A stretch of DNA of 30,076 nucleotides from a virus. Location of the stretch: positions 1-30,076 of IMG/VR virus record IMGVR_UViG_3300042691_015359; one strand, written 5' to 3'. Shown here in pieces: positions 1 to 20,389 of the stretch. Below the pieces are notes generated by a model that saw only the letters and a list, made by a program, of their open reading frames with translations, searched no databases and was not told where the DNA came from. A program made the translations under genes and the position numbers. How positions within the stretch are numbered: the stretch's first letter is position 1; each line of letters starts with the position of its first letter.

Positions 1-1
1 C

Positions 2-82
2 GACCGTATGCCCTGCCGTATCGACGTTCTGTACGGCTACAGCACCATCCGTCCGCAGATGGCTTGCCGCCTCTGGGGCTAA
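2..82 (+). CDS. Major capsid (coat) protein, P22 gp5-like, C-terminal fragment
   Basis: Only the last 26 codons are present; the reading frame is open at the left edge and ends in TAA at 80-82. The visible tail contains IDVLYGYSTIRPQMACRLWG. A final stretch of the form DVLYG-x(4-5)-RPEMACR is typical of P22-type coat proteins, which form the icosahedral shell. Its place just upstream of small virion-like genes and a gp4-like neck gene fits P22 gene order. The fragment is too short to exclude another virion protein, but sequence and context agree. The rest of the gene lies outside the window. Confidence 0.72.
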   Translation, partial: DRMPCRIDVLYGYSTIRPQMACRLWG

Positions 83-91
83 CCTGAACCC

Positions 92-113
92 GCCCTCGGC
101 TTCGGTCGGGGGC
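92..113 (+). promoter_or_regulatory. RNA hairpin with UUCG tetraloop after the coat gene
   Basis: GCCCTCGGC pairs with GTCGGGGGC through 9 base pairs, two of them G-U, closed by C(UUCG)G, a very stable RNA tetraloop. It lies 9 bases after the coat stop codon and before the ribosome site (AAAGGA) of the next gene. No U-run follows directly, so mRNA protection or partial termination is more likely than full termination. Two more hairpins of the same design follow in the next two gaps. Confidence 0.6.
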
Positions 114-136
114 AACACCTTTGAAAGGATACTACC

Positions 137-541
137 ATGACTCTCCCCAATGGTGCCGGCGGTTATCAGGTCGGCGACGGCAACATCAACCAGGCTCTTC
201 TCGGTGTGCAGGCTATTCCGACTGCTTTCACCGGCGCGGCCACGCTCACCCCGCTCAACCTTGAGCAGGGGCTGATCGTCTTCACTTCTGGCAGCGGTGC
301 TAACCTCGCTCTCCCGCCGGTCACTGGCGTTGGCGGCGTCGATGACCGCATCAACAGCGCGCGTGTCAACTCGTGCTTTGACTTCGCGGTTCTCAGCACC
401 GGCGCGGGCGCAGCCACTCTGACGGCTGGCACCGGCTGGACGCTGGTTGGTTCGGGCGTTTGCGTCGCGGGCGCTGCGGTGATGTTCCGCGCGGTCAAGA
501 CCGGCGACGACACCTACACCCTGTACCGGATTGCCAACTAA
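137..541 (+). CDS. Hypothetical virion protein, possible head decoration protein
   Basis: This 134-residue protein has no recognised family. It is rich in Gly, Ala, Thr and Val with few charged residues, and its alternating small and hydrophobic residues suggest an all-beta fold. It has no signal peptide or membrane segment. The ATG is preceded by AAAGGA at good spacing. Lying directly after the coat gene, isolated by a stable hairpin on each side, it could be an abundant head decoration or stabilising protein. That role is inferred from position and composition only. The next gene (590-1003) has similar length and composition and may have a related job. Confidence 0.75.
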   Translation: MTLPNGAGGYQVGDGNINQALLGVQAIPTAFTGAATLTPLNLEQGLIVFTSGSGANLALPPVTGVGGVDDRINSARVNSCFDFAVLSTGAGAATLTAGTGWTLVGSGVCVAGAAVMFRAVKTGDDTYTLYRIAN

Positions 542-548
542 TCGGTTC

Positions 549-568
549 GCCCCAGCTTCGGCTGGGGC
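549..568 (+). promoter_or_regulatory. RNA hairpin with UUCG tetraloop
   Basis: GCCCCAGC and GCTGGGGC form a perfect 8-bp stem closed by C(UUCG)G, beginning 7 bases after the stop codon of the preceding gene. It is followed by AACCTTTT and then the strong ribosome site AAGGAG of the next gene. It could be a weak terminator or a 3' end stabiliser that sets transcript levels for the upstream virion gene. Confidence 0.65.
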
Positions 569-589
569 AACCTTTTAAGGAGAAACGAA

Positions 590-1003
590 ATGGCAAACTC
601 TCAGGCCATCGGCGTTGCCTACCTCGACCAAGACATTCGCGGCGCGGACGTTGTCTACGTCGCGGATGAACTCGGCTATACCGCCGCCGCTCGCGGGACG
701 GTCACGCAGGCTACCGACAAGTCCACCGCCGTCACGCTGAACCGCTCGGCGGGCACTGTCACCATGAACGCTGCTGCGCTGGCCGCGAACACTTCGGTCA
801 CGTTCACGCTCAACAACAGCAAGATTTCGGCAGGTGATGCCGTGATCCTGTCGATTGTCGGCGGCACCGCTACCCCTGGCACCTACACCCTGGGGGTGAC
901 GGGCCTGACTGCGGGCGCTGCGACCATCACGCTGCGCAACATTTCGGCGGGCAGTTTGAGCGAAGCCGTTGTGTTCAATTTCGTGATTGTCCACGCAGGC
1001 TGA
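590..1003 (+). CDS. Hypothetical virion protein, beta-rich
   Basis: This 137-residue protein is not recognised. Its N-terminal 35 residues are mixed (YLDQDIRGADVVYVADELGY) and the rest is Thr/Ala/Val/Gly-rich with repeated beta-like stretches such as SVTFTLNNSKISAGDAVILS, suggesting a secreted-style or virion beta-sandwich. The start is supported by an ideal AAGGAG seven bases before the ATG. It sits between two UUCG hairpins in the head gene block, so a decoration or head-fibre role is plausible but unproven. No Cys and no membrane segment are present. Confidence 0.75.
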   Translation: MANSQAIGVAYLDQDIRGADVVYVADELGYTAAARGTVTQATDKSTAVTLNRSAGTVTMNAAALAANTSVTFTLNNSKISAGDAVILSIVGGTATPGTYTLGVTGLTAGAATITLRNISAGSLSEAVVFNFVIVHAG

Positions 1004-1010
1004 TAAACTT

Positions 1011-1030
1011 GGGCGGCCTTCGGGCCGTCC
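1011..1030 (+). promoter_or_regulatory. RNA hairpin with UUCG tetraloop
   Basis: GGGCGGCC and GGCCGTCC form an 8-bp stem with one G-U pair, closed by C(UUCG)G, starting 8 bases after the preceding stop codon and just before the ribosome site of the next gene (GAGG near 1038). It is the third hairpin of this design within the first kilobase. Confidence 0.62.
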
Positions 1031-1047
1031 ATTTCACGAGGTATCCT

Positions 1048-1287
1048 ATGTCCGTCATCTATCTGACCCACCCCGTCCACGGCGCCAAGGTCGCTATCAG
1101 CGAGCATGAGGCCCAGCAGGACGAAATGTACGGCTGGTCGCGCTACGAGCCTGAAGCCCCCGCGCCCGCCACCAACGCCTTTGCGCACCCGCTCGACCAT
1201 GACGGCGACGGCCGCCTCGGCGGTTCGCCCGCGGGCGAACAGTCTACCCGCCGCCGCGGGCGTCCCCGCGCAGCGCCGGAAGAATAG
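1048..1287 (+). CDS. Small hypothetical protein between head and neck genes
   Basis: The product has 79 residues. I chose ATG 1048 over TTG 1009 because GAGG lies at a suitable distance and because the TTG start would run through the upstream hairpin. The N-terminus (MSVIYLTHPVHGAKVAISEH) looks folded; the second half is Pro/Ala-rich and ends in a basic-acidic tail with RRRGRPR, an AT-hook-like GRP core. Small proteins of this style often lie between coat and neck genes in podoviruses of alphaproteobacteria. No function is assigned. The stop is 3 bases before the GTG of the gp4-like gene. Confidence 0.7.
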   Translation: MSVIYLTHPVHGAKVAISEHEAQQDEMYGWSRYEPEAPAPATNAFAHPLDHDGDGRLGGSPAGEQSTRRRGRPRAAPEE

Positions 1288-1290
1288 GCC

Positions 1291-2001
1291 GTGACGAGCG
1301 CGGGCGAGATCATCAACGGTTCGCTTCGCCTCCTCGGCGTTCTGGCCGAAGGCGAAACGCCGTCGGCCGAAACGTCGCAGGACGCGCTGGCGGCCATGAA
1401 CCAGATGATCGACAGTTGGAACACGGAGCGTCTGTCCGTGTTCGCAACGCAAGATCAGGTGTTCACGTGGCCGGCCGGTCAGCTTTCCCGCACGCTTGGC
1501 CCGACAGGCAATTTTGTCGGCAGCCGCCCCGTGCTGCTCGAAGACAGCACCTATTTCCGCGACCCCGGCACCGGCGTCAGCTACGGCATCAAGTTTATCA
1601 ACCAGCAGCAGTACAACGGGATCGCGGTCAAGACCGTGACCTCGACGTACCCGCAGGTGATCTTCGTCAACAACACGTTCCCCGACGTGGAGATGTACGT
1701 CTATCCGCGCCCGACGCGCGATCTGGAATGGCACTTCATTTCCGTTGAGGAACTGACCAAGCCCGCGACGCTGGCCACGCAGTTGCACTTCCCGCCGGGC
1801 TACCTGCGCGCCTTCCGCTACAACTTGGCCACCGAGATGGCGCCCGAGTTTGGCATGGAGCCGACGCCGCAGGTGCAACGCATCGCTATGACCAGCAAGC
1901 GCAACCTCAAGCGGATCAACAACCCTGACGACATCATGTCGATGCCGTACAGCATTGTGGCGACCCGTCAGCGGTTCAACATCTACGCCGGGAACTACTG
2001 A
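1291..2001 (+). CDS. Head-tail neck protein, P22 gp4-like (packaged DNA stabilisation)
   Basis: This 236-residue protein resembles P22 tail accessory factor gp4. It begins with a helix-rich stretch (GEIINGSLRLLGVLAEGETP) and a segment AALAAMNQMIDSW-like in style, followed by FATQDQVFTWPAGQ; this N-terminal pattern is typical of gp4-like adaptors. In P22, gp4 binds under the portal after packaging and starts tail assembly. The start is GTG, 3 bases after the previous stop; the end overlaps the next ATG in a TGATG junction. Its position directly before a gp10-like gene supports the call. P22 gp4 also has muralytic activity; nothing here shows whether this one does. Confidence 0.82.
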   Translation: MTSAGEIINGSLRLLGVLAEGETPSAETSQDALAAMNQMIDSWNTERLSVFATQDQVFTWPAGQLSRTLGPTGNFVGSRPVLLEDSTYFRDPGTGVSYGIKFINQQQYNGIAVKTVTSTYPQVIFVNNTFPDVEMYVYPRPTRDLEWHFISVEELTKPATLATQLHFPPGYLRAFRYNLATEMAPEFGMEPTPQVQRIAMTSKRNLKRINNPDDIMSMPYSIVATRQRFNIYAGNY

Positions 2002-3431
2002 TGAAGACGCCGATCTTGGGATCGGCGTATGTCGCTCGCAGCGTCAACGCCGCCGCCAACCGCATGGTCAACCTGTTCCCGGAGATCGTCCCGGAGGGCG
2101 GCAAGGAGCCTGCCTTCCTCCAGCGTGCGCCCGGCCTGACGCGGCTGGCGACCATCGGCATCGGTCCGATCCGCGGGATGTGGACCTTCGGCAACTACGG
2201 CTACGTCGTGTCTGGCCCGACGCTGTTTCAGGTGGACAGCAACTGGAACGCCGTCGCCAAGGGCACCATCGCCGGCACCGGCCCAGTCAGCATGTCCGAC
2301 AACGGCATCCAGCTATTCGTGGCGGCCAACCCGCAGGGCTACATCTACAACTCCCAGACCGACGCGTTCCAGCAGATCACCGACCCGGACTTTCCCGGCG
2401 CAGTGACGGTCGGCTACCTCGACGGCTACTTCGTGTTCAACGAGCCGAACAGCCAGAAGATTTGGGTCACGCAGTTGCTGGACGGCACCAGCGTCGATCC
2501 GCTGGACTTTGCCAGCGCCGAAGGCAACCCCGACAACGTCGTGGCGATCTTTGTCGATCACCGCGAGGTCTGGGTGTTCGGCTCGAACTCGACCGAAGTC
2601 TGGTACAACGCTGGCTTGCTCGACTTCCCGCTGGCGCGCATTCAGGGCGCCTACAACGAACTCGGCTGCGCGGCCCCGTATTCCATCGCCAAGATGGACA
2701 ACCAGATTTACTGGCTGGGCAAGGACGCCCGCGGTCAGGGTATGGTCTTCCGCGCGGCTGGCTACATGGGCCAGCGCATCTCGACCCACGCAATCGAGTG
2801 GCAGCTACAGGAATACTCCGACCTGTCGGACGCGGTCGGCTACACCTACCAGCAGGACGGCCACAGCTTCTACGTGCTTAACTTCCCGACCGCCAACACG
2901 ACGTGGGTGTTCGACGTGGCGACCGGCGCATGGCACGAGCGCGCCTCGTTCCAGAACGGCGACTTCAACCGTCACCGCGGCAACAGCCAGATGTTCTTCA
3001 ACGCCACCAACGTGGTCGGCGATTACCAGAACGGCAAAATCTACAAGTTCGATCTTGAAGTCTACGCCGACGATGGCCAGCCGCAGAAGTGGCTGCGCTC
3101 GTGGCGGGCGCTGCCGACCGGCGCCAACAACCTGACGCGCACGATCCAGCACGGGATGCAACTCGACTGCGAGACGGGCGTCGGCCTTAACGTTGGGCAG
3201 GGCAGCGACCCGCGGGTCATGCTGCGCTTCTCGGACGACGGCGCCCATACGTGGTCGAACGAGCACTGGAAGTCGATGGGCCGCATCGGCCGCTACGGCT
3301 TCCGCACGATCTGGCGCCGGCTGGGCGCGACGATGAAGATACGCGACCGCGTCTACGAATTGTCCGGCACTGACCCAGTCCGCATCTACATCATGGGCGC
3401 GGAACTGATCCTGAGCGGGACGCGTGCCTGA
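2001..3431 (+). CDS. Neck/tail hub protein, P22 gp10-like (packaged DNA stabilisation)
   Basis: This 476-residue protein matches the phage stabilisation family of P22 gp10. The opening (GSAYVARSVNAAANRMVNLF, then PEIVPEGGKEPAFLQRAPGL) is diagnostic: conserved NLFPE followed by a short acidic-basic stretch and a PGL motif. The body shows repeating beta-blade-like segments (VSGPTLFQVD, VYNSQTDAF-like, VDHREVWVFGSNSTEVWYNA). In P22, gp10 forms the hexameric nozzle below gp4 and receives needle and spikes. Length is close to P22 gp10 (472). It overlaps its neighbours through TGATG at both ends, indicating translational coupling. Confidence 0.88.
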   Translation: MKTPILGSAYVARSVNAAANRMVNLFPEIVPEGGKEPAFLQRAPGLTRLATIGIGPIRGMWTFGNYGYVVSGPTLFQVDSNWNAVAKGTIAGTGPVSMSDNGIQLFVAANPQGYIYNSQTDAFQQITDPDFPGAVTVGYLDGYFVFNEPNSQKIWVTQLLDGTSVDPLDFASAEGNPDNVVAIFVDHREVWVFGSNSTEVWYNAGLLDFPLARIQGAYNELGCAAPYSIAKMDNQIYWLGKDARGQGMVFRAAGYMGQRISTHAIEWQLQEYSDLSDAVGYTYQQDGHSFYVLNFPTANTTWVFDVATGAWHERASFQNGDFNRHRGNSQMFFNATNVVGDYQNGKIYKFDLEVYADDGQPQKWLRSWRALPTGANNLTRTIQHGMQLDCETGVGLNVGQGSDPRVMLRFSDDGAHTWSNEHWKSMGRIGRYGFRTIWRRLGATMKIRDRVYELSGTDPVRIYIMGAELILSGTRA

Positions 3432-4276
3432 TGGTCGCACCGATTAACCCCACACAGCTTACGCCGCCGCGGGTTGACTTTATCGACCCGCGGTCCGGCG
3501 CGATCAGCCGTGAGTGGTATCGGTTCTTCCTGTCGCTGCTGACGGCGACGCAGACCAACCAGCAAGAGACGGAACTGGCGCCCGCCACCGCGTCGCTGCT
3601 GGCGTCCTACGACGCGGTGTTCGGTGAGGCTATTCAGGCGCTGGAGAGCGCCCCTGACTGCTGCTCCGAGACGGCCAGCGTAGACGCCAAGGTCAACAGT
3701 CTCGCGCAGGCCACCGGCGTCACGCCGCCGGCTGCCAGCGAAGACGACATCGCGGTCATCCAATCGCAGCTTCAGGCGCTGGCGCTGTCGCCGCCGCCGA
3801 AAGAGTTTATCTCGCCGCGCTACGGATCGTTCTACGACACGACCGATCAGACGGCCGCCGTCATCAACACCGCTTACCCGATGACGTTCAACACGACCGA
3901 CTTGTCGTTCGGCGTCACGCGCGGCTCGCCAACGTCGCGTATTTTCGTTGACCGGGCCAACGTCTACAACATTCAGTTCTCCGCGCAGTTTATCAACACC
4001 GGCGGCGGCGCCCACCGCGTTTGGGTATGGCTGCGCAAGAACGGCACCAACGTGCCTGACAGCGCAACAGTCGTTCGTATTGAGGGCAACAGCACGGAAG
4101 CTGTCGCGGCGTGGAACTTTCTGCTACAAATGAACGCTGGCGACTATTTCGAACTGATGTGGGAAGTGGATAACACCGGCATTTCGCTGTTTGCAGATCC
4201 TGCCACGGCCGTTCACCCTGCAATCCCGTCGATTATTTTGACTGTGACTGACAACGTGAGTTCCTTGGAGGTATAA
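3431..4276 (+). CDS. Tail needle or short fibre candidate with jelly-roll-like C-terminal domain
   Basis: This 281-residue protein starts with a motif common in podovirus tail proteins, FIDPRSGAISREWYRFFLSL (residues about 17-36), probably the virion attachment end. Residues 40-120 are helical or low complexity. Residues about 130-280 contain the pattern VYNIQFSAQF, GGGAHRVWVWLRKNGTNVPD, AAWNFLLQMNAGDYFELMW, which resembles C1q/TNF-like jelly-roll tips seen on phage fibres. It occupies the place of P22 gp26 (needle), directly after the gp10-like gene. Some P22-like needles (phage Sf6) carry a TNF-like knob, so a needle is reasonable; a receptor-binding fibre is the alternative. Two adjacent Cys lie near residues 77-78. 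Confidence 0.7.
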   Translation: MVAPINPTQLTPPRVDFIDPRSGAISREWYRFFLSLLTATQTNQQETELAPATASLLASYDAVFGEAIQALESAPDCCSETASVDAKVNSLAQATGVTPPAASEDDIAVIQSQLQALALSPPPKEFISPRYGSFYDTTDQTAAVINTAYPMTFNTTDLSFGVTRGSPTSRIFVDRANVYNIQFSAQFINTGGGAHRVWVWLRKNGTNVPDSATVVRIEGNSTEAVAAWNFLLQMNAGDYFELMWEVDNTGISLFADPATAVHPAIPSIILTVTDNVSSLEV

Positions 4277-4612
4277 ATGGCCGTTACCATCAGCAACATC
4301 ATCCCGGCCAAGACCGCGGAGAATGCCCAGACGACGCAGTACACGTCGAACGGCGTCCAGACGATCATCGACAAGTTCACGGCCACCAACTACAGCGCGG
4401 CCGCGGCGACGATCAGCGTCAACCTCGTGACCGCTGCGGGCAGCGCGGGCAACGACAACCTGATCGTCAAGACCAAGACGCTCCAGCCGTCCGAGACGTA
4501 CACCTTTCCGGAACTGGTCGGCCACGTCCTGCCGCTGGGCGGCTTCATCTCGACCATCGCCGGCACCGCGTCGGCCATCAACATCCGTGCCTCGGGGCGC
4601 GAGATTAGCTGA
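4277..4612 (+). CDS. Small beta-rich virion-associated protein, unknown
   Basis: The product has 111 residues. The order is a short N-terminal stretch (MAVTISNIIPAKTAENAQTT), then Thr/Ala/Val-rich strands ending in NIRASGREIS. The strand pattern (FTATNYSAAAATISVNLV) suggests an immunoglobulin-like or jelly-roll sandwich similar to small phage proteins found beside tail fibres. It starts directly after the preceding stop with GGAGG upstream, and its stop overlaps the next start (TGATG). No catalytic motif is visible. A minor tail or decoration protein is the best guess, from context. Confidence 0.7.
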   Translation: MAVTISNIIPAKTAENAQTTQYTSNGVQTIIDKFTATNYSAAAATISVNLVTAAGSAGNDNLIVKTKTLQPSETYTFPELVGHVLPLGGFISTIAGTASAINIRASGREIS

Positions 4613-5034
4613 TGATCTTGAGCCGCACCCAAGACGCGGAGCACGTTAACGCGGTCATCAACGACCCGGACGTGCGCCCGTTTGTGGGTGCACCGGATGC
4701 AGGGCCGCTGGACCTTGCGCCGGTGGTGGAGCGGCCGGAACACTGGTTTCTGATGGGTGAGCACGGCGGGTTTGCGCTGCTTTGGTCGGCACCGCGCACC
4801 TACGAAGTGCATACCTTCGTCTTGCCTGCGGGGCGGGGCAAGTGGGCGGCGGATGCGCGGCGGGCGATGATCGACTTCGCCAAGCGTCACAAAGCCCAGA
4901 CGCTCTGGACGAAGATACCGCCTAATGCGCGTCATGTCGAGCGGTTTGCGCGGCAGGGGGGTATGCAGCCGACAGAAGAAGTGATAGAAACTTTTGGCGA
5001 ACCTTACATGGTTTATAGCATGGAGTTGGCGTAA
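4612..5034 (+). CDS. GNAT-like acyltransferase domain protein in the virion gene block
   Basis: This 140-residue protein has the layout of a GNAT fold: an N-terminal helix region (DAEHVNAVINDPDVRPFVGA), central strands (HWFLMGEHGGFALLWSAPRT), a strand then acetyl-CoA loop-like VHTFVLPAGRGKWAADARRA, and a C-terminal part (NARHVERFARQGGMQPTEEV). The RGKWAADA segment matches the pyrophosphate-binding region loosely. Similar GNAT-like proteins occur in the same slot of several podoviruses. It occupies the place of P22 gp14, a small protein needed for head or ejection function. Substrate unknown; it could be structural rather than enzymatic. Confidence 0.68.
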   Translation: MILSRTQDAEHVNAVINDPDVRPFVGAPDAGPLDLAPVVERPEHWFLMGEHGGFALLWSAPRTYEVHTFVLPAGRGKWAADARRAMIDFAKRHKAQTLWTKIPPNARHVERFARQGGMQPTEEVIETFGEPYMVYSMELA

Positions 5035-5771
5035 TGCCTGTAGCTGGTGCAATTATCGGCGGTGTCGCTTCGGTTGGCAGCGGCCTTATGGCCGCGCGCG
5101 GTGCCCGTAGGGCTGCTCGCGCGCAGACGCAGGCAGCGCAAGCTGCCGAGCAGACTCAGCGCGAGATGTTCGAGCGCCAGATCGCGCTTCAGGAACCGTT
5201 CCGTCAGGCGGGGATGACCGCCCAGCAGCAGATCATGCAGTTGCTGGGCATTGGCGGTGACGCCAACGCGGCAGACTACGGCAGCATGGCGCGGCCGTTC
5301 GGGCAGCAGGACTTCGAGGCCGACCCCGGCTACGCTTTCCGGCAGGCCGAGGGAATGCGCGCGCTGGAGCGGTCGGCGTCTGCACGCGGCGGTCTGCTGT
5401 CGGGCAACATTCTGCGCGGCGTCCAACGCTTCGGGCAGGACTTGGCCAGCCAAGAGTACGGCAACGCCTTCAACCGCTTCCAAATCGAGCGCGCCGCGCG
5501 CCTCAACCCGCTCCAGTCGCTGATGGGGTCGGGCCAGTCGGCCGCCAATGTGATGACCGGCGCGGCCGGACAGGCGGGACAGAACATCGGCCAGATGCAG
5601 CTTGGCGCCGGGCAGGCCCGCGCGTCGGGCTACGTCGGTAGCGCCAACGCGCTGGCCGGTGCGTTGCAGGGCATTGGCTCGGCAGCGATGGGCTTCCCGA
5701 TGTATCAGGCGCAGATGAACTACTTCAACCGCAATCCCAGCGTAAACCCTAGCCAAGTTCCGGGGACTTAG
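5034..5771 (+). CDS. DNA ejection/transfer protein, P22 gp7-like
   Basis: This 245-residue protein begins with a glycine-rich hydrophobic segment (AIIGGVASVGSGLMAARGAR), followed by an Ala/Gln-rich coiled coil (residues about 22-60). Conserved-looking blocks are DPGYAFRQAEGMRALERSAS and GGLLSGNILRGVQRFGQDLA, then ALAGALQGIGSA near the end. This order is characteristic of podovirus DNA transfer proteins, which are packed in the head and ejected to help DNA cross the cell envelope. The hydrophobic start may insert in membranes. Its start overlaps the preceding stop (TAATG) and it is the first of three ejection-like genes, as in P22 (gp7, gp20, gp16). Confidence 0.75.
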   Translation: MPVAGAIIGGVASVGSGLMAARGARRAARAQTQAAQAAEQTQREMFERQIALQEPFRQAGMTAQQQIMQLLGIGGDANAADYGSMARPFGQQDFEADPGYAFRQAEGMRALERSASARGGLLSGNILRGVQRFGQDLASQEYGNAFNRFQIERAARLNPLQSLMGSGQSAANVMTGAAGQAGQNIGQMQLGAGQARASGYVGSANALAGALQGIGSAAMGFPMYQAQMNYFNRNPSVNPSQVPGT

Positions 5772-5773
5772 TC

Positions 5774-7570
5774 GTGGCCAACCAAGCAATCGCCCTTCAG
5801 GCTCGCGCGCCCCAGAATGACTTCATGGGCAGGGCAATCCAGCAGAACGCCCAGATGTTGAACATGATGTCTCAGCAGCGCGCTGCTGAACGTCAGGCGG
5901 CGCAGGCGGCGCAGGAGATGGAGTTCGCCCGCGCGGCGGAAGGCCGTGCTGCTGCTGAAGAAGGGCGCAAAATTACCCAGTTTGAGATTGAACAGGCTGA
6001 CCGTCAGTTCGAATACCACGGCAAACGGGCTACGGTGGTGAACACCCCACAAGGCTACGAAATGTGGCTCGCGGGCGTCGGTAAAGACTCCCGCGAAATG
6101 GCGGATTTCATCCGCGCAAACTTGCCGCCGGAACAGTTTAGTGTCGATCCTGAGCGCGGCCGCGATCTTTTGATTAAGTTGGTCGGCAGCCTCAAACAAA
6201 ACTTTGACGCCACGTATGGTCCGAAGGAAAGCCAAGTCCAAGTCCGCCTTGACGGCACGCCGCTTGAAATAGTCACCGGCGGCTTCGGTAAGCCGGGCGC
6301 GTACCCAGTCGAACAATACGAACTCGCGCCGCAGGGCGGAAACGCCGCGCCGCCCCCGCCGCCGGCTGCGAGCGGCGCCAGCGCGCGCCCGACGCAAGGC
6401 ACGGCTACTGCGCCGGCCGACCTGCGCGCGCAGGGCGTAGACCCGCGGTCCATCCCGAGTGGCAACCCACTACAGCCGATCAGCATGACGACTGGCCCGC
6501 AGATGGGCGGACAGCCGGACCTGACCGGTATTGTCGAGCAGATGATGTCGTCGGGTCAGATTTCGCAGTCTAACCTTCAACTGATGCGCGACGCCGCCGG
6601 TCCCGACAAGGACGCTCAACTGGCGGAAATCCTCAAAGCCAACAACATCCAGATCGTGCCTGACGAGCAGCCGTCGCTGCGCAGCGCCGTGTTCCGTCCC
6701 GGCGAAGACGCCGCGCCGCAAATGCAACAGGTGCAGGCGAGGGAAGGCTACGTTCCTACCGGCCGCGCTGCTCGCGTCAAAGACCCCATGCAGTCGCCGG
6801 CGCCGGGGTCCACAATCGTCCCGATTGAACGCATCCAGCGGGAGTCCGACGCCGAACGCCCCTCGCCGCAGCGCGTATACGAGGAGGAACTGGCCCGCGA
6901 AAAGGCTAAACTAGACGCCGCAGCGGGACGGCCCAAACCGCTCACGCCGGTGCAAGAGACCAAGCTGCGCGACAACATCGCAAAAGACTTTAAGGCGGCG
7001 CAGTCTACCCTAGACATGATGCTCGCGCCGGACACCGGCGTGGTCGCTGCGGTGGACGCAGTCCGCAAACTTTCGCCAACGCAAAAAGAGGCCGTCACAG
7101 GGTTTAGCGGCTACGTACCGTCTGTCCTACCTTCCTCGCGCAGCGCGGACACGGCGATCAAAAACTTGCAGGGCAAAGTCACCCAAATGGGCAAGGCGAC
7201 AGCGTCTCTAAGCGGCGCTATCGGGCAGATGGCGGTCCAAGAGTGGAAGATCGTCAGCGATATGATCGCGGCCCTCGATGTTACGGGCATGGAGCCTGCC
7301 GACCTCGACAACCAGCTAGACATTATCGAAGCCACCGCGCGGCGGGCGGCGCAGACCACCCGCGACGCGTATGAAAGCCAGTACGCCGAAGAGTTCGCTC
7401 GCTATCCGGGCCGCTTTATACTGAAAGAGCCGGCAAGGGTCCGCACGACGCCCGGAAAAAAAGCCGAGACGGCGATCCCTCGCGTTCGCAGCGACGCGGA
7501 CTATAACCGGCTTAAACCCGGTACGGTGTTCATCGACCCTAACGGTCAGCGGCGGAGGAAACCGCGATGA
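5774..7570 (+). CDS. Internal virion/ejection protein, P22 gp20-like position
   Basis: This 598-residue protein starts at GTG 5774. Residues about 1-90 are Gln/Ala/Glu-rich and predicted coiled coil (RAAERQAAQAAQEMEFARAA). Residues about 190-225 form a Pro/Ala-rich linker with six consecutive prolines. The C-terminal half (about 370-600) is helical and charged and ends in a basic tail (GQRRRKPR). Such long, Ala/Gln-rich, helical proteins after a gp7-like gene are usual for ejected internal proteins. Homology to P22 gp20 itself is not visible; the role comes from position and composition. The stop overlaps the next start (ATGA). No RBS is obvious, so coupling to the upstream gene is likely. 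Confidence 0.72.
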   Translation: MANQAIALQARAPQNDFMGRAIQQNAQMLNMMSQQRAAERQAAQAAQEMEFARAAEGRAAAEEGRKITQFEIEQADRQFEYHGKRATVVNTPQGYEMWLAGVGKDSREMADFIRANLPPEQFSVDPERGRDLLIKLVGSLKQNFDATYGPKESQVQVRLDGTPLEIVTGGFGKPGAYPVEQYELAPQGGNAAPPPPPAASGASARPTQGTATAPADLRAQGVDPRSIPSGNPLQPISMTTGPQMGGQPDLTGIVEQMMSSGQISQSNLQLMRDAAGPDKDAQLAEILKANNIQIVPDEQPSLRSAVFRPGEDAAPQMQQVQAREGYVPTGRAARVKDPMQSPAPGSTIVPIERIQRESDAERPSPQRVYEEELAREKAKLDAAAGRPKPLTPVQETKLRDNIAKDFKAAQSTLDMMLAPDTGVVAAVDAVRKLSPTQKEAVTGFSGYVPSVLPSSRSADTAIKNLQGKVTQMGKATASLSGAIGQMAVQEWKIVSDMIAALDVTGMEPADLDNQLDIIEATARRAAQTTRDAYESQYAEEFARYPGRFILKEPARVRTTPGKKAETAIPRVRSDADYNRLKPGTVFIDPNGQRRRKPR

Positions 7571-13834: not shown

Positions 13835-14494
13835 ATGACGGAACTTATGAAGTTTGGCGGGTCGAACCTGCCGTCGGTGCAGTCGCTGTCGTCGGCCCTG
13901 CGTTCGGTTGCGGCCGATGTGGGCGCGGGCGGTATGGTCATCCTCAAGATGGACAAGACCGGCCATTGGGTGTTCGGCGCGGACCAAGACGAAGTCGAAG
14001 ACGACAGCATCTGGGCGGTCAATCCCTTCTCGTTCGTCCACGGCTACATCTGCTGGGGCGATGGTGAGGTGCTGGCCGAGAAGATGGTCGGCGTGGCCGA
14101 GCCGCTGCCCGAACTGGAGCCTGCTCCGGCCGCTTCGAAGCGGGGCTGGGAGATGCAGGTCGGCATGACGCTGGCCTGCACCAACGGCGAGGACGAAGGG
14201 ATGCAGGCGCGCTATGCGGCCACGTCCGTCGGCGGGAAGAAGGCCGTGCAGGCGCTTGCCGTGGCCATCGCCGAGCAGGTGGACAAGGATCAGTCCAAGC
14301 CGGTGCCGATGGTGCGTCTGAAGAAGGACCACTACAGCCATAAGTCTTACGGGAAGATCTACACGCCCGTCTTCGAGGTCGTGAAGTGGGTGGGTCTTGA
14401 CGCCCAGCCGACCGAAGGCGACACTGAAGAGGCTGTCGAAGACGAAGTGGCTGCGGAAGAGGCTCCGCGCCGTCGTCGCCGCGCGACAGCATAA
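13835..14494 (+). CDS. Probable single-stranded DNA-binding protein
   Basis: This 219-residue protein lies between DUF2800 and the polymerase, where many phages carry their SSB (DUF2815-type). Visible features: N-terminal helix region (SVQSLSSALRSVAADVGAGG), an aromatic segment WAVNPFSFVHGYICWGDGEV (about 48-67), a central strand KRGWEMQVGMTLACTNGEDE, KKDHYSHKSYGKIYTPVFEV (about 169-188), and a very acidic stretch followed by a basic tail (PRRRRRATA). The aromatic and GKIYTP parts fit an OB-like DNA-binding protein. I do not recognise a specific family with certainty; SSB is an inference from context and layout. Confidence 0.65.
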   Translation: MTELMKFGGSNLPSVQSLSSALRSVAADVGAGGMVILKMDKTGHWVFGADQDEVEDDSIWAVNPFSFVHGYICWGDGEVLAEKMVGVAEPLPELEPAPAASKRGWEMQVGMTLACTNGEDEGMQARYAATSVGGKKAVQALAVAIAEQVDKDQSKPVPMVRLKKDHYSHKSYGKIYTPVFEVVKWVGLDAQPTEGDTEEAVEDEVAAEEAPRRRRRATA

Positions 14495-14505: not shown

Positions 14506-14537
14506 GCCGGGGGTGGTCATTTTCGGCCGCCCCCGGC
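14506..14537 (+). promoter_or_regulatory. GC-rich hairpin after the SSB-like gene
   Basis: GCCGGGGGTGG (14506-14516) pairs with CCGCCCCCGGC (14527-14537) over 11 bp with one G-U pair and a 10-base loop. It starts 12 bases after the stop codon. No U-run follows, so it is more likely a 3' stabiliser or attenuator that limits expression of the genes downstream than a full terminator. Confidence 0.6.
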
Positions 14538-14562
14538 GAGTAGCGGATGAGTGAGGCATCCG

Positions 14563-15105
14563 ATGAAACATGATAGTATTAGAGAACTTGAGTGCGCGTC
14601 TGGTTTTGACTTGACGGCGCCGCCTACTGAAGAATGGGCGGTAGTGCCCACCACGCTTCGAAAAGCGAACGATTTTGTCGCCGCGCATCACCGCCACACA
14701 GGCCGAACTGCTCGGAACGGCGGTAAATTCGCTATCGGCCTAGCTAAAAACGGTGTGCTCGCTGGCGTTGCTATTGTTGGCAACCCGTTAAGCGCGACGC
14801 TTATGGATGGGTTTACTGCCGAAGTTTTGCGGCTGTGCGTCATCAAAGGCGCGCCTGACTGCGCGTGCTCACGGCTTTACGCCGCCTGCTGGCGCGCGTG
14901 GAAAGCTATGGGCGGTCGGCGCATGATGACCTACACGTTAGAAAGCGAACCGGGCACTAGCCTCAAAGCGGCGGGGTGGGTTCAAGTCGGCAAGACTAAG
15001 CCGACGGCGGGCGGCTGGCGTAAAAGCGGCGACAATTGCACGCGAACAGAAACGGCAGTTTTGGCGTTGGTAAAGCACCGCTGGGAAATCCGGTCGGAAA
15101 AATGA
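14563..15105 (+). CDS. XF1762 family protein, Mom/GNAT-like acyltransferase relative
   Basis: The product has 180 residues. ATG 14563 has GAGG at ideal spacing; a GTG at 14551 is the alternative. Features: NDFVAAHHRHTGRTARNGGK (about residues 37-56), strand pair FAIGLAKNGVLAGVAIVGNP, VLRLCVIKGAPDCACSRLYA and a C-terminal RRMMTYTLESEPGTSLKAAG. This matches the XF1762 family, which is GNAT-like and related to the Mu Mom group of DNA base-modifying acyltransferases. DNA modification is therefore possible but not shown. Its codons (many GCT, GTT, TTT, GAA) are more AT-rich than its neighbours, suggesting separate acquisition. The stop overlaps the polymerase ATG (ATGA). Confidence 0.75.
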   Translation: MKHDSIRELECASGFDLTAPPTEEWAVVPTTLRKANDFVAAHHRHTGRTARNGGKFAIGLAKNGVLAGVAIVGNPLSATLMDGFTAEVLRLCVIKGAPDCACSRLYAACWRAWKAMGGRRMMTYTLESEPGTSLKAAGWVQVGKTKPTAGGWRKSGDNCTRTETAVLALVKHRWEIRSEK

Positions 15106-17069: not shown

Positions 17070-17584
17070 ATTGGAAAGCCGTACCTGAATGGCCGCGCTA
17101 TGATGTGAGCGATACTGGTCTTGTGCGGTCGCGCGACATGGTCGTCGGGGCCAGAGGTGGTAAGACTGCTGTCCGTAAAGGTCGCATTTTGGCGGCTGCT
17201 AGAGCGTCGAATGGCTATTGGGTTGTCACTGTGACTGACGGCAAGCGCCGTCAACAAGCCGCTGTGCACCGGCTAGTCGCGACGGCGTTTCATGGCGCGC
17301 CGCCGCATTCTGGCGCGCACGTTTTGCACAGCGACGGCGATAAAGATAACAACGCAGCGTGTAATTTGCGTTGGGGTACGCCGGCCGACAACCATGCCGA
17401 TACGGAAAAGCATGGCCGCCGCCGCAAAGGCGAAGCCCATCCGTACGCAAAACTGAACGAAGCTGCGGTGCGTCATATTCGTGGTTCGGCTGCCGACGCC
17501 AGCGAATTAGCGGGCGCCTATAGCGTAACTCGCGAACATATCTGGGCCATACGCAAAAATCGCGTCTGGCGCCACGTCAATTGA
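17066..17584 (+). CDS. NUMOD4-HNH homing endonuclease (free-standing)
   Basis: The product has 172 residues. NUMOD4 at the N-terminus (WKAVPEWPRYDVSDTGLVRS, residues 3-22), then an HNH core: H68 in AVHRLVATAF, H88 in VLHSDGDKDNN, N100 in NLRWGTPADN. The C-terminus (AYAKL-like EAHPYAKLNEAAVRHIRG and YSVTREHIWAIRKNRVWRHV) is a helical DNA-binding module like those in other NUMOD endonucleases. Such enzymes cut a site in related phage genomes so that their own gene is copied in. The GTG start overlaps the polymerase stop (GTGA). Codons are less GC-rich than those of the primase that follows. Confidence 0.9.
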   Translation: MNWKAVPEWPRYDVSDTGLVRSRDMVVGARGGKTAVRKGRILAAARASNGYWVVTVTDGKRRQQAAVHRLVATAFHGAPPHSGAHVLHSDGDKDNNAACNLRWGTPADNHADTEKHGRRRKGEAHPYAKLNEAAVRHIRGSAADASELAGAYSVTREHIWAIRKNRVWRHVN

Positions 17585-17601
17585 ACAGGAAGGGAAACGC
17601 G

Positions 17602-19941
17602 ATGAGTGAGGATCGCACGACGTTTATCGACTACATCATAGGGCTGGGCGACGTGGACGGCGAGACCGCCCTGCTGGTGCGGCAGAAGCCGAAGAAGGAT
17701 GGTGAGGGCAACATCATCTACCACGGCGACGGAGCGCCGAAGTCCACCTTCCTGTTCCACCTGCCGCACACTGCGCGCATGAAAGACGGCGAGGCGTGGT
17801 ATATCAACACCGGCTCGTTCATCATCGACCGCTTCCCCGAAGGCAAGCCGAGCGCCAAGCGCGAGCACTGCGAATACGTCCTGTTCATGATGCTGGACGA
17901 CATTGGCACGAAGTCGAAAGAGCCGACGCTCCCGCCGACGTGGGTCATGGAGACGAGCGCCGGATCGTTCCAGTGGGGATACGCCTTCAGCGAGCAGCCT
18001 ACCAAGCACGAGTTTACGGCGGCCATCAAGGCCATTGCCGAGGCGGGCTACACCGACCCCGGCGCGACCAACGCGGTGCGCAACTGCCGCATCCCCGGCA
18101 GCGTCAACCTGAAGCGGGGCCGGAACAACTTCGAGGCGCGGCTGGTCGAGTTCCACCCTGAGCGCGAATACACACTGGCCGAGATTTGCGAGGCGCTGGG
18201 CGTCGAGCCTGCCGAGGCGGACACGGCCGAGCACCGCAGCATCGCCATCCGCGACACCGGCGGCGACACTGTCCTGCAATGGCTGTCCGACAACAATCTG
18301 GTGCTGACCAAGGTCAATAACGAAGGCTGGTGCGGCGTGGTCTGCCCCAACCATGCCGAGCACAGCGACGGCAACATCGAGGGCCGCTACAAACCGCTGG
18401 ATCGTTCCTACTGCTGCTACCACGGCCATTGCCAGCACATCGACAGCCGCACGTTCCTTGAGTGGGTGGCCGAGAACGACGGGCCGAAGGTGACGCCGGG
18501 TCTGCGCGAGGAATTGCTGACCGAGCGGCTGCGGCTGATGAGCGAGAAAATCCAGCCGACCGAAGCCTTCCCCGACGAGGCGGCGGCTATCGTGCGTGAG
18601 GTCGAGCGCAAGGAAGCTGGTCGGCTGGAGCGTTCGGAGTGGTTCGAGCGCTTCGCCTACATCCAGTCGGATGATGCCTACTTCGACATGGTGACGCGGC
18701 GGGAGGTGGCGCGGGGCGTGTTCAACGCGCTGTTCCGTCACGTCGATTGCCGGTCGGTGCACAACAAGAAGAAGGCCGTGCAGGCGTCCACCTATTTCGA
18801 CGAGCGCCGCCAAGAGTATGGCGCGAAGGCGCTGATCGGCGTGACGTTCGCGCCGGGCGAGGACGTGCTGGTCGCGCGTGACGGGCTGGTCTACGGCAAC
18901 CGCTGGGTCAATCACCGCCCCGACATGAGCGGTTCGGACGCGATGTCCGACGCGGATGTGGAGCGTTGGCTGGATCACTGCCGCGTGCTGGTGCCAAACG
19001 AGAAAGAGTTGGCGCACGTGCTGGACGTTATGGCGTTCAAGGTGCAGCGCCCGAATGTGAAGATCAATCATGCGGTGCTGCACGGCGGTGACGAGGGGTC
19101 GGGCAAGGACACCATGTGGGCACCCTTCCTGTGGGCCATTGGCGGCCAGCATCAGCACAATCGGTCGATCATCGAGACGGGCGGGCTGGACAGTCAGTGG
19201 GGCTATGGCCTCGAAGCCGAAGTGGTCATCCTGAACGAGTTGAAGGAACCCGAGGCACGCGAGCGCCGCGCGCTGGCCAACAAGCTGAAGCCGATCATCG
19301 CCGCGCCGCCCGAGACGATCACCATCAACCGCAAGGGGCTGCACCCCTATGAGATGCTGAACCGCTTGCAGGTGATCGCATTCACCAACGACCCGCTCCC
19401 CATCACCATCCCGACGCAGGATCGCCGCTGGTTCTGTCTGTGGTCGCACGCGCCGCGCATGGCCGAGGAAGCAGGCCCAGCGCTGTGGGCGTGGTATAAG
19501 CAGGGCGGCTTTGAAAAGGTCGCTGCGTGGCTCTGGCAGCGCGACGTGAGCCGGTTCAACCCGGCCGCTGCGCCGCCCGTCACCGAATGGAAACTCAACA
19601 TGGTCGAACACGGCCTGTCGGTCGCGGAAAGCTACTTGGTCGATATGCTGCGCGCACGCACGGGCGTGTTTGCGCGGGGCGTTATCGGTGGGCCATTCCA
19701 CAAGGTATGCGACACCATCGCGGGCAGCCTTCCGGCAGGCACGAAGGTGCCGCAGGCGGCACTGCTGCACGCCTTTAAGGAAGCGGGCTGGATTGATTGC
19801 GGTCGGATTGCGTCGGTCGAATACGCGACCAAGAAGCAGATTTACGCTGCGCCGGACGCGCTGGCAGCCCACAGCAAGAGCGATTTGCGCCGCATGGTGG
19901 AACATGTTGCACCGCCCGAAGATGGTGTGGTAAAGACCTGA
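17602..19941 (+). CDS. Primase-helicase (RepB/AEP-like N-terminus, DUF5906/D5-like SF3 helicase)
   Basis: The product has 779 residues; ATG 17602 has AGGAAGGG upstream. Residues 1-200 look like a RepB-type archaeo-eukaryotic primase: LFMMLDD (94-100) and the signature NCRIPGSVNLK (161-171). Residues 248-277 carry a Cys/His zinc-binding set (C248, H251, C271, C272, H274, C277). The C-terminal helicase has Walker A HGGDEGSGKDT (494-504), Walker B-like VVILNELKE (541-549), a sensor FTND (594-597) and DRRWF arginines. It would unwind DNA and make primers for the adjacent polymerase. It is the last gene before the two-way terminator. Confidence 0.9.
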   Translation: MSEDRTTFIDYIIGLGDVDGETALLVRQKPKKDGEGNIIYHGDGAPKSTFLFHLPHTARMKDGEAWYINTGSFIIDRFPEGKPSAKREHCEYVLFMMLDDIGTKSKEPTLPPTWVMETSAGSFQWGYAFSEQPTKHEFTAAIKAIAEAGYTDPGATNAVRNCRIPGSVNLKRGRNNFEARLVEFHPEREYTLAEICEALGVEPAEADTAEHRSIAIRDTGGDTVLQWLSDNNLVLTKVNNEGWCGVVCPNHAEHSDGNIEGRYKPLDRSYCCYHGHCQHIDSRTFLEWVAENDGPKVTPGLREELLTERLRLMSEKIQPTEAFPDEAAAIVREVERKEAGRLERSEWFERFAYIQSDDAYFDMVTRREVARGVFNALFRHVDCRSVHNKKKAVQASTYFDERRQEYGAKALIGVTFAPGEDVLVARDGLVYGNRWVNHRPDMSGSDAMSDADVERWLDHCRVLVPNEKELAHVLDVMAFKVQRPNVKINHAVLHGGDEGSGKDTMWAPFLWAIGGQHQHNRSIIETGGLDSQWGYGLEAEVVILNELKEPEARERRALANKLKPIIAAPPETITINRKGLHPYEMLNRLQVIAFTNDPLPITIPTQDRRWFCLWSHAPRMAEEAGPALWAWYKQGGFEKVAAWLWQRDVSRFNPAAAPPVTEWKLNMVEHGLSVAESYLVDMLRARTGVFARGVIGGPFHKVCDTIAGSLPAGTKVPQAALLHAFKEAGWIDCGRIASVEYATKKQIYAAPDALAAHSKSDLRRMVEHVAPPEDGVVKT

Positions 19942-19970
19942 CGTCAGTTTGCTCCTGACTTCAGCATAAA

Positions 19971-20013
19971 GCCCCCTGCGGTATGGCCTCACTCCACACC
20001 GCAGGGGGCTTTT
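19971..20013. terminator. Bidirectional intrinsic terminator between convergent operons
   Basis: GCCCCCTGCGGT (19971-19982) pairs perfectly over 12 bp with ACCGCAGGGGGC (19998-20009), with a 15-base loop. TTTTCTTT follows on the plus strand, and on the minus strand the hairpin is followed by TTTATGC. It sits 30 bases past the primase-helicase stop and 3 bases beyond the end of the first minus-strand gene, so it can stop transcription from both sides. Confidence 0.9.
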
Positions 20014-20015
20014 CT

Positions 20016-20207
20016 TTATTCAACGCGGGTGATGGTCGTCACGCCTTCGATGGTGCGGCACTGGTAGAAGCGCCCTGTGCGGATGCCGTATTGGCTGGCG
20101 TTGCGGCAGATACGCTTGACGTCGGCGCTGGTGGGCGCTGGCAGTTGCACCACGTCGCCAAGGTTCATTGCGTGAAAGGGATAGGTCGGCGGTCGTCCTA
20201 CGGGCAT
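20016..20207 (-). CDS. Small hypothetical protein, terminal gene of the minus-strand small-gene operon
   Basis: The product has 63 residues. Basic and polar, with VVQLPAPTSADVKRICRNAS followed by QYGIRTGRFYQCRTIEGVTT. The middle can form a helix-turn-helix-like pair and similar short proteins occur in other phages of alphaproteobacteria, but I assign no function. The ATG overlaps the end of the upstream gene by 10 bases. Two Cys are spaced widely. The stop is directly before the two-way terminator, marking it as the operon end. Confidence 0.72.
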   Translation of the reverse strand: MPVGRPPTYPFHAMNLGDVVQLPAPTSADVKRICRNASQYGIRTGRFYQCRTIEGVTTITRVE

Positions 20208-20389
20208 AGCTGGATCGCCTCCACGTCGTCGATGCGCGCGACCGCGCGGCGTTTGTCGCGCACGAGGCGGCGCTTGGCGATAGCTACCGCTTGGCGCGGG
20301 TCGGGTGCACGTGTGCGGATCGATGTCGTCCGGCGGTGGCCGAAGGGCGTGTAATAGGTCACGCGGCAGAAATAGTCGAAGTCGGGCAC
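20198..20389 (-). CDS. Small basic hypothetical protein
   Basis: The product has 63 residues from a GTG start supported by AGGGAG upstream. It has a strand-like start (FDYFCRVTYYTPFGHRRTTS) and a basic helix (PRQAVAIAKRRLVRDKRRAV) followed by an acidic end. This beta-beta-helix layout with many Arg suggests nucleic acid binding, but no family is recognised. It overlaps both neighbours (31 bases of the upstream gene, 10 of the downstream one). A longer open frame extends upstream but covers other better supported genes. Confidence 0.6.
   Translation of the reverse strand: MPDFDYFCRVTYYTPFGHRRTTSIRTRAPDPRQAVAIAKRRLVRDKRRAVARIDDVEAIQLCP

Follow-up and report, generated by a model that had tools for sequence, protein, structure and literature searches.

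Serial UUCG-capped hairpins behind the coat gene and the two following genes of a P22-like phage

The stretch of DNA analysed here (30,076 nt, referred to as the window) comes from a P22-like phage with a short tail and revealed three UUCG-capped hairpins, one behind the coat gene and one behind each of the two following genes, designated D1 and D2. A hairpin of this sort is a known kind of element, and our findings extend a known pattern rather than describe a new kind of system. New are the serial form with one hairpin per gene, the exchanged third gene, and a U-tract that is found mostly on the last hairpin in the clade of the window. Based on the comparison of sequences, we favour, with a probability of about one in two, the explanation that they are serial post-coat stem-loops that would act as 3'-end barriers and insulators, the third one acting additionally as a leaky terminator. 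Their use would probably lie in higher levels or better protection of the mRNAs encoding the most abundant shell proteins.

The window begins with the last coat codons, followed by D1, D2, a small gene designated S, a gp4-like tail adaptor, and a gp10-like protein (Table 1). DNA replication genes, terminase, and a partial portal gene are located further along. The coat assignment in the window is based on the last 26 codons only; relatives of the DSL-LC05 coat protein are annotated as "P22 coat protein", which identifies it as a coat of the P22 gene 5 kind.

Table 1. Genes and hairpins at the start of the window (positions in nt, energies as calculated)
Feature	Position	Strand	Remarks
Major capsid (coat) gene, P22-like, 3' end	1..82	+	Stop TAA 80-82; C-terminus 85% identical to the coat protein of phage DSL-LC05
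Hairpin 1	92..113	+	GCCCUCGGC(UUCG)GUCGGGGGC; 9 bp including two G-U; -16.3 kcal/mol
D1, putative capsid spike or decoration protein, 134 aa	137..541	+	AF2 model compared with Pa223 capsid spike 9ny6_C
Hairpin 2	549..568	+	GCCCCAGC(UUCG)GCUGGGGC; 8 bp, no G-U; -17.2 kcal/mol
D2, putative virion surface protein, exchangeable C-terminal part, 137 aa	590..1003	+	phrog_18251 (unknown function)
Hairpin 3	1010..1031	+	UGGGCGGCC(UUCG)GGCCGUCCA; 9 bp including one G-U; -17.6 kcal/mol
S, 79 aa, function unknown, first gene past the hairpin block	1048..1287	+	Start picked by ribosome site
Tail accessory factor / head-tail adaptor, P22 gp4-like	1291..2001	+	phrog_12985, phrog_637 "head-tail adaptor Ad3"; weak Pfam P22_Tail-4, below cut-off
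Packaged DNA stabilisation protein, P22 gp10-like, head closure Hc3	2001..3431	+	phrog_578, E 2.9e-134

For D1, neither a PHROG nor a sequence match in the PDB was found. Its AF2 model (pLDDT 86.9) resembled the C-terminal domain of the capsid spike of Pseudomonas phage Pa223 (9ny6_C), both in Foldseek (E 7.7e-5, TMq 0.45) and in VIA (Z 9.8, rmsd 2.3 over 93 residues), with tailspike and baseplate domains next at Z values of at most 7.8; the predicted fold marks D1 as a putative capsid spike or decoration protein. A tblastn search with D1 in phage records resulted in no match despite a 45% relative in DSL-LC05, which is probably due to the low-complexity filter of BLAST. The AF2 model of D2 (pLDDT 85.3) matched uncharacterised phage proteins and, at lower ranks, collagen-repeat and capsule-lyase-like virion proteins, and no PDB fold matched it with an E value below 0.001. 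These modelled similarities are suggestive of a virion surface protein. Thus, the label of a coat-decoration block, given to these genes in the original prediction, is supported for D1 by the capsid-spike fold and remains suggestive for D2. In both proteins, the alignments show a conserved N-terminal end that the models leave poorly ordered, as would suit arms docking on the shell.

A window-wide search for UUCG stems confirmed the three predicted hairpins with stems of 8-9 bp and a C(UUCG)G loop. Two of them are located exactly where they had been placed, and the third one, predicted at 1011-1030, is one pair longer. Instead of the proposed 7-10 bases, hairpins 1, 2, and 3 begin 9, 7, and 6 nt past the respective stop codons, namely the coat stop, TAA 539-541 of D1, and TGA 1001-1003 of D2, the latter being directly followed by an in-frame TAA (1004-1006) to form a tandem stop. 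Behind hairpin 1 follows the tail AACACCUUUGAAAGG without a U-tract, behind hairpin 2 the tail AACCUUUUAAGGAG with no U-tract adjoining the stem, and behind hairpin 3 the letters UUUCACGAGG, with UUUU or UUUUU in many relatives. As predicted, each hairpin precedes the next ribosome site, in that a purine stretch resembling such a site and an ATG (at 137, 590, and 1048) follow, the distance from hairpin to ATG being 16-23 nt. No other UUCG hairpin with at least six contiguous pairs was found on either strand of the window. In dinucleotide-shuffled windows, UUCG stems of at least 8 bp occurred with a mean of 0.155 and a maximum of 2, and three of them in none of 200 shuffles. When 22 gene ends of the window were scored for post-stop hairpins, the three UUCG hairpins took ranks 2 to 4; hairpin 1 was detected there although the coat end had been set one base off. 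The strongest of these 22 was a non-UUCG hairpin (14506-14537) past an early gene, which we counted against the favoured explanation.

No Rfam family reached its gathering threshold anywhere in the window; weak matches to the sX6 sRNA within positions 1-1300 (13.4 and 13.2 bits, the gathering score being 40; one match falls on hairpin 2) were judged to be chance similarity of GC-rich stems. Simple promoter and terminator scans of the window listed none of the three hairpins, and terminator-like sites in the simple scan numbered 12 in the first half (14.2 in shuffles) and 22 in the second half (15.2 in shuffles).

A hairpin 6-9 nt past a stop codon might also be a recoding signal stimulating read-through or bypassing. 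Known signals of this type are similar in position and loop, T4 gene 60 using a tetraloop stem-loop (PMC3014915), and the commonest junction lengths among relatives, 54 for the coat gene and 48 for D1, are multiples of three. We nevertheless consider recoding extremely improbable, since UAA stops were found in 28/28, 27/28, and 36/37 junctions, with UAAU in 27/28 at D1, and the tandem UGA UAA closes D2 in the window. Moreover, junction lengths vary and the frame is not strictly kept (some coat lengths are a few bases too long because the D1 start was extended), and in-frame extensions ranged from 0 to 153 codons.

That the later virion genes lack such hairpins, as had been stated originally, is true for UUCG hairpins but weak as evidence, since the ORFs from 1287 to 7570 abut or overlap with gaps of -4 to +3 nt and leave no room for them. 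The same arrangement could speak for a mainly translational role, with hairpins that insulate neighbouring genes, block re-initiation by a just-terminated ribosome, and keep the next ribosome site unstructured; they occupy the space between the terminating (6-9 nt) and the initiating ribosome (16-23 nt), and the overlapping or abutting later virion genes do without them. We consider this role improbable as the main one, because a spacer would suffice for it and the UNCG loops, the GC-rich stems, and the compensatory changes described below would be left unexplained, as would the match with coat genes across families.

Relatives were collected in three protein searches in viral contigs, resulting in 80 (of at least 600), 79, and 51 loci. 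A hairpin was called stable at -12 kcal/mol or better with its start at most 25 nt from the stop, and each junction sequence was counted once, with related sequences among those counted. Among junctions with a named next gene, stable hairpins were detected in 48/75 for the coat gene, 55/57 for D1, and 32/36 for D2, while dinucleotide shuffles of these junctions gave 0.6 to 1.4% under the same criterion. As controls, the gene ends of S, the tail adaptor, and gp10 revealed 1/33, 14/122, and 1/125, respectively, and the six listed of the 14 tail-adaptor hairpins all lay within the opening codons of gp10. Where the next gene could not be named, a laxer cut-off of -8 resulted in 17/31 (coat), 42/46 (D1), and 5/28 (D2). 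Several of the coat and D2 relatives with such an unnamed next gene come from a lineage that leaves little space between the coat stop and the following gene. Among 11 distinct coat junctions of this lineage (coats 37-42% identical to that of DSL-LC05), seven had no 6-bp stem, two an A/U-rich one, and two a GC-rich one, so that the hairpin is not essential, a further point against the favoured explanation.

The window itself harbors a hairpin of 9 bp at 2007-2028, within the opening codons of the gp10-like gene and 5 nt past the stop of the tail adaptor. Close relatives have this hairpin as well; it could limit the translation of the low-copy gp10-like protein.

A set of 13 genomes, made up of three annotated complete ones and ten contigs with a length of 36-39 kb, contained 33 strong UNCG stems. 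Of these, 20 were located directly past coat, D1, or D2, and two of the other 13 stems were hairpin 3 past an exchanged gene. Three of these 13 genomes had no UNCG stem labelled coat, D1, or D2, namely G005, with other loops on its first two stems, G006, and MW202483. When gene ends were ranked by their post-stop hairpins, the coat junction took rank 1 and the D1 junction rank 2 in DSL-LC05 (57 gene ends scored); the coat junction was also first in Rhodoferax phage P26218 (44 gene ends) and second in P22 (16 gene ends), after the end of the tailspike gene. More distant P22-like coat junctions folded a hairpin in 15 of 17 cases, taken from 79 phage records with a coat match (60 of them listed) and excluding P26218, DSL-LC05, and MW202483, which were looked at separately. 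The choice was meant to keep out near-identical junctions, although X14, 1.184.A, and 41E34.2 still resemble each other closely. Those of Thalassomonas phage BA3, Vibrio phage VvAW1, and Xanthomonas phage PBR31 are canonical terminators with a U-tract; others have none. Hairpins past most of these P22-like coat genes, and likewise in P22, HK97, and lambda, fit a role for the most abundant proteins.

For a closer group, termed the window clade, we compiled 33 distinct blocks with a D1 at least 55% identical and a tail adaptor in the same locus; these blocks are related and not independent. A strong stem was found past the coat gene in 33/33, past D1 in 33/33, and, wherever a third gene is present, past that gene too (26/26); the remaining seven blocks harbor two hairpins only. 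Two of these seven (L038 and L107) carry a D2 relative outside the block, past the tail adaptor. No UUCG hairpin accompanies it there, indicating that the hairpin tracks the block and not the protein, which we also counted against the favoured explanation. UNCG loops, including UACG and UCCG, cap 19/22 (coat), 22/28 (D1), and 20/22 (D2) of the strong window-clade hairpins, a preponderance that would fit selection on an RNA tetraloop.

In nine of the 33 blocks (nine of the 26 with a third gene: L009, L090, L095-L100, and L104), the third gene is not the usual D2, and the flanking hairpins retain their place and kind. Eight exchanged genes were extracted, comprising 94-100 codons and having in common with D2 mainly the first c. 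20 residues, in most cases with the motif M-x-N-T-K-A-I-G-V-A-Y; one of the eight carries yet another C-terminal part. Altogether, D2 and the exchanged genes look like proteins with a shared docking arm and swapped outer domains. This exchange of D2 between conserved hairpins 2 and 3 in 9/33 blocks would be expected if the hairpins served as recombination boundaries for swapping decoration genes as cassettes. However, the exchanged part starts c. 20 codons inside D2 and not at hairpin 2, and compensatory changes keep the stem while altering the DNA sequence, which homology-based exchange would not select, so that we give this explanation little credence.

Compensatory base-pair changes in relatives, named in the original prediction as its own test, were found in all three stems. 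For hairpin 2, five of eight pairs showed changes on both sides (28 sequences; equalled in 0/500 shuffles), compared to two of nine pairs for hairpin 1 (18 sequences in one register; 2/500 shuffles) and two of nine for hairpin 3 (20 sequences; 7/500 shuffles), all counted in alignments with the structure imposed. Pairing dropped from 98-100% to at most 67.5% when the partner was slid by 1 to 3 columns. The alignment for hairpin 2 (A2) includes all 28 D1 junctions. For junction 1, alignment A1 (27 of 28 coat junctions, without L167) was not counted as it mixes two stem registers; the alignment used instead (A6) holds the 18 of its 27 rows in one register, and the row of the window, being in the other register, is hence absent. 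Alignment A3 contains 20 of the 37 D2 junctions, a choice that favours structure: among the 17 left out, seven have no hairpin, with the next gene starting at once, and ten have other stems, mostly from the other clade. An arm-swap test was given no evidential use, since the hairpins had been selected by pairing.

The original prediction treated the three as one design with one function, whereas relatives show a difference: hairpins 1 and 2 lack the U-tract that hairpin 3 has there, in the window only marginally. Terminator character was assessed by a score of the d'Aubenton-Carafa type, for which seven annotated P22 terminators gave four positive values, two negative values, and one that was not computable. 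Hairpins 1 and 2, with AACACC and AACCUU adjoining their stems, scored -43 and -27; hairpin 3 scored only +0.7, right at the threshold, and this low value also counts against our favoured explanation. Terminator-like junctions of the window clade amounted to 0/22 (coat), 1/28 (D1), and 19/26 (D2), those of the other clade to 14/43, 43/74, and 6/38, respectively. What stays constant is thus the stem, and what varies is the U-tract. Over all relatives, terminator-like hairpins also occur inside the block (17/61 at the coat-D1 junction and 14/29 at the D1-D2 junction), so that the clean split holds for the window clade only. Accordingly, a rule that only the last gene of the block carries a U-tract was dropped for the relatives as a whole, being a tendency there (36/62 hairpin-bearing last ends versus 31/90 internal ends; Fisher p 0.005 for non-independent sequences). 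Within the window clade, locus L116 has S directly after D1 and has kept a type-2 hairpin without a U-tract. Judging from these sequences, labour appears to be divided between the hairpins of the window clade, the first two being without a U-tract and the third mostly having one, in the window only marginally.

These counts also bear on the explanation that all three hairpins are leaky terminators causing a stepwise transcript gradient (coat > D1 > D2 > tail genes) like T-phi of T7. According to PMC5592923, the only T7 terminator for its own RNA polymerase lies past gene 10, and genes 11-12 are read by read-through only. Hairpin and T-phi are alike in lying directly past the coat gene and parting a high-copy coat from low-copy tail genes; T-phi differs in being single, in acting on the phage's own polymerase, and in having a U-tract, which hairpins 1 and 2 lack. 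In favour of such a gradient, there are the canonical U-tracts in BA3, VvAW1, and PBR31, the score of +16 for the P22 post-coat hairpin, and the positive D1 and coat junctions of the other clade. In the window clade, however, hairpins 1 and 2 are mostly followed by A/C-rich letters instead of U, and hardly any of these junctions scored positive. Late transcription is antiterminated in P22 (gene 23 annotation) and likewise in lambda, there by Q, and yet the stem-loop is retained. Furthermore, the stems lie 6-9 nt past the stops, where a coupled ribosome represses termination: in an E. coli reporter described in PMC4824070, an intrinsic terminator 5 nt past the stop was repressed by the ribosome from c. 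90% to below 10%. We thus regard a gradient set by three terminators as unlikely. By the same token, stems so close to their stops should act mostly on finished RNA if translation is good.

Hairpin 1 falls under the definition of a post-coat stem-loop in that it follows the coat stop at a distance of no more than about 10 nt and the next gene begins only after it. The P22 record lists a stem-loop at 6102-6119 as "putative; similar in location to stem-loops in phage HK97 and phage lambda", and the HK97 record a "putative" terminator at 5192-5213, past gp5; neither states a function. The P22 post-coat hairpin reads AGGGGC(UGCG)GCCCCU, and that of HK97 is a GAAA-capped stem. In lambda, AUGGCCC(UUCG)GGGCCAU begins two bases past the stop of gene E, and gene D is followed by a hairpin that carries seven U in a row. 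The place is the same, 2-6 nt past the coat stop in these phages and before the next gene; the window differs by having a series of three, in which every gene of the block has its own hairpin and, in its clade, the U-tract is mostly limited to the last one. A search for literature on the function of the post-coat hairpin in P22-like phages found no such title, subscription journals being mostly outside its scope. In HK97 (L256, 4444-4463), a putative terminator is also annotated past the gene for the major tail subunit, another high-copy virion protein.

With an intergenic position and a UUCG loop closed by C-G, all three hairpins also fit the definition of C(UUCG)G intercistronic hairpins. 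CUUCGG hairpins are common in intergenic regions of phages, are especially abundant in T4 phages, and have varied functions (PMC8948821, citing Tuerk et al. 1988). Loop, closing pair, and intergenic position are shared with the T4 type; what sets the hairpins of the window apart is their association with genes for coat and putative decoration proteins in a P22-like phage. Regarding their possible action, a comparison can be made with segmental mRNA stabilisers outside phages. REP elements (malE-malF) and the Rhodobacter puf hairpins are stable intercistronic hairpins of this kind, proposed to block 3' exonucleases and thereby to yield more protein from the upstream gene; the likeness lies in this proposed action.

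According to our favoured explanation, the coat-D1-D2 block would repeat in series the post-coat stem-loop known from P22, HK97, and lambda, each gene having its own 3' hairpin. The block would be transcribed as part of a long late mRNA, and each hairpin would bar exonucleases running 3' to 5'. Cuts in the U/A-rich linkers past the hairpins, or breaks further downstream, could then leave stable coat, D1, and D2 segments, and the tail part of the mRNA would decay faster than these shell segments. The hairpins may also insulate each gene from its neighbour, unlike the overlapping tail genes. Hairpin 3, with its U-run in many relatives, would additionally be a leaky intrinsic terminator that lets less transcription into the low-copy tail genes. 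A higher yield of coat and decoration proteins by way of the hairpins, as proposed originally, is plausible.

In a more speculative version, to which we assign only a slim chance, the hairpins would form a ribosome-gated governor of stoichiometry: a tailing ribosome would hold the stems open, and hairpin 3 would terminate only on poorly translated shell messages. If so, expression of the tail genes would be tied to synthesis of the shell proteins, with hairpins 1 and 2 protecting the shell messages. Either way, the block touches on the old question of how hundreds of shell proteins and a handful of tail proteins are made from adjoining phage genes. The family provides a natural series, with two or three hairpins, a single one behind the coat gene in P26218, with or without a U-tract, and with exchanged genes in between, which could separate protection, termination, and insulation from each other.

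Some further features were identified in the remainder of the window. The non-UUCG hairpin at 14506-14537 (13 bp, -29.6 kcal/mol, loop AUUUUC) begins 11 nt past the stop of a nucleotidyltransferase-like gene (13835-14494) and is followed by a gene for a Mom-like DNA modification protein (14551-15105; phrog_1384, E 4.6e-33), which is located among the replication genes. ARAGORN called a tRNA-Phe of 99 nt at 19476-19574, within the primase ORF (17581-19941), which is probably a false call. No hairpin of the window has a lower calculated energy than the one at 19968-20012 (19 bp, -38.6 kcal/mol, in the minus-strand listing), which lies past the primase gene and overlaps the start of the ORF at 19983-20354.
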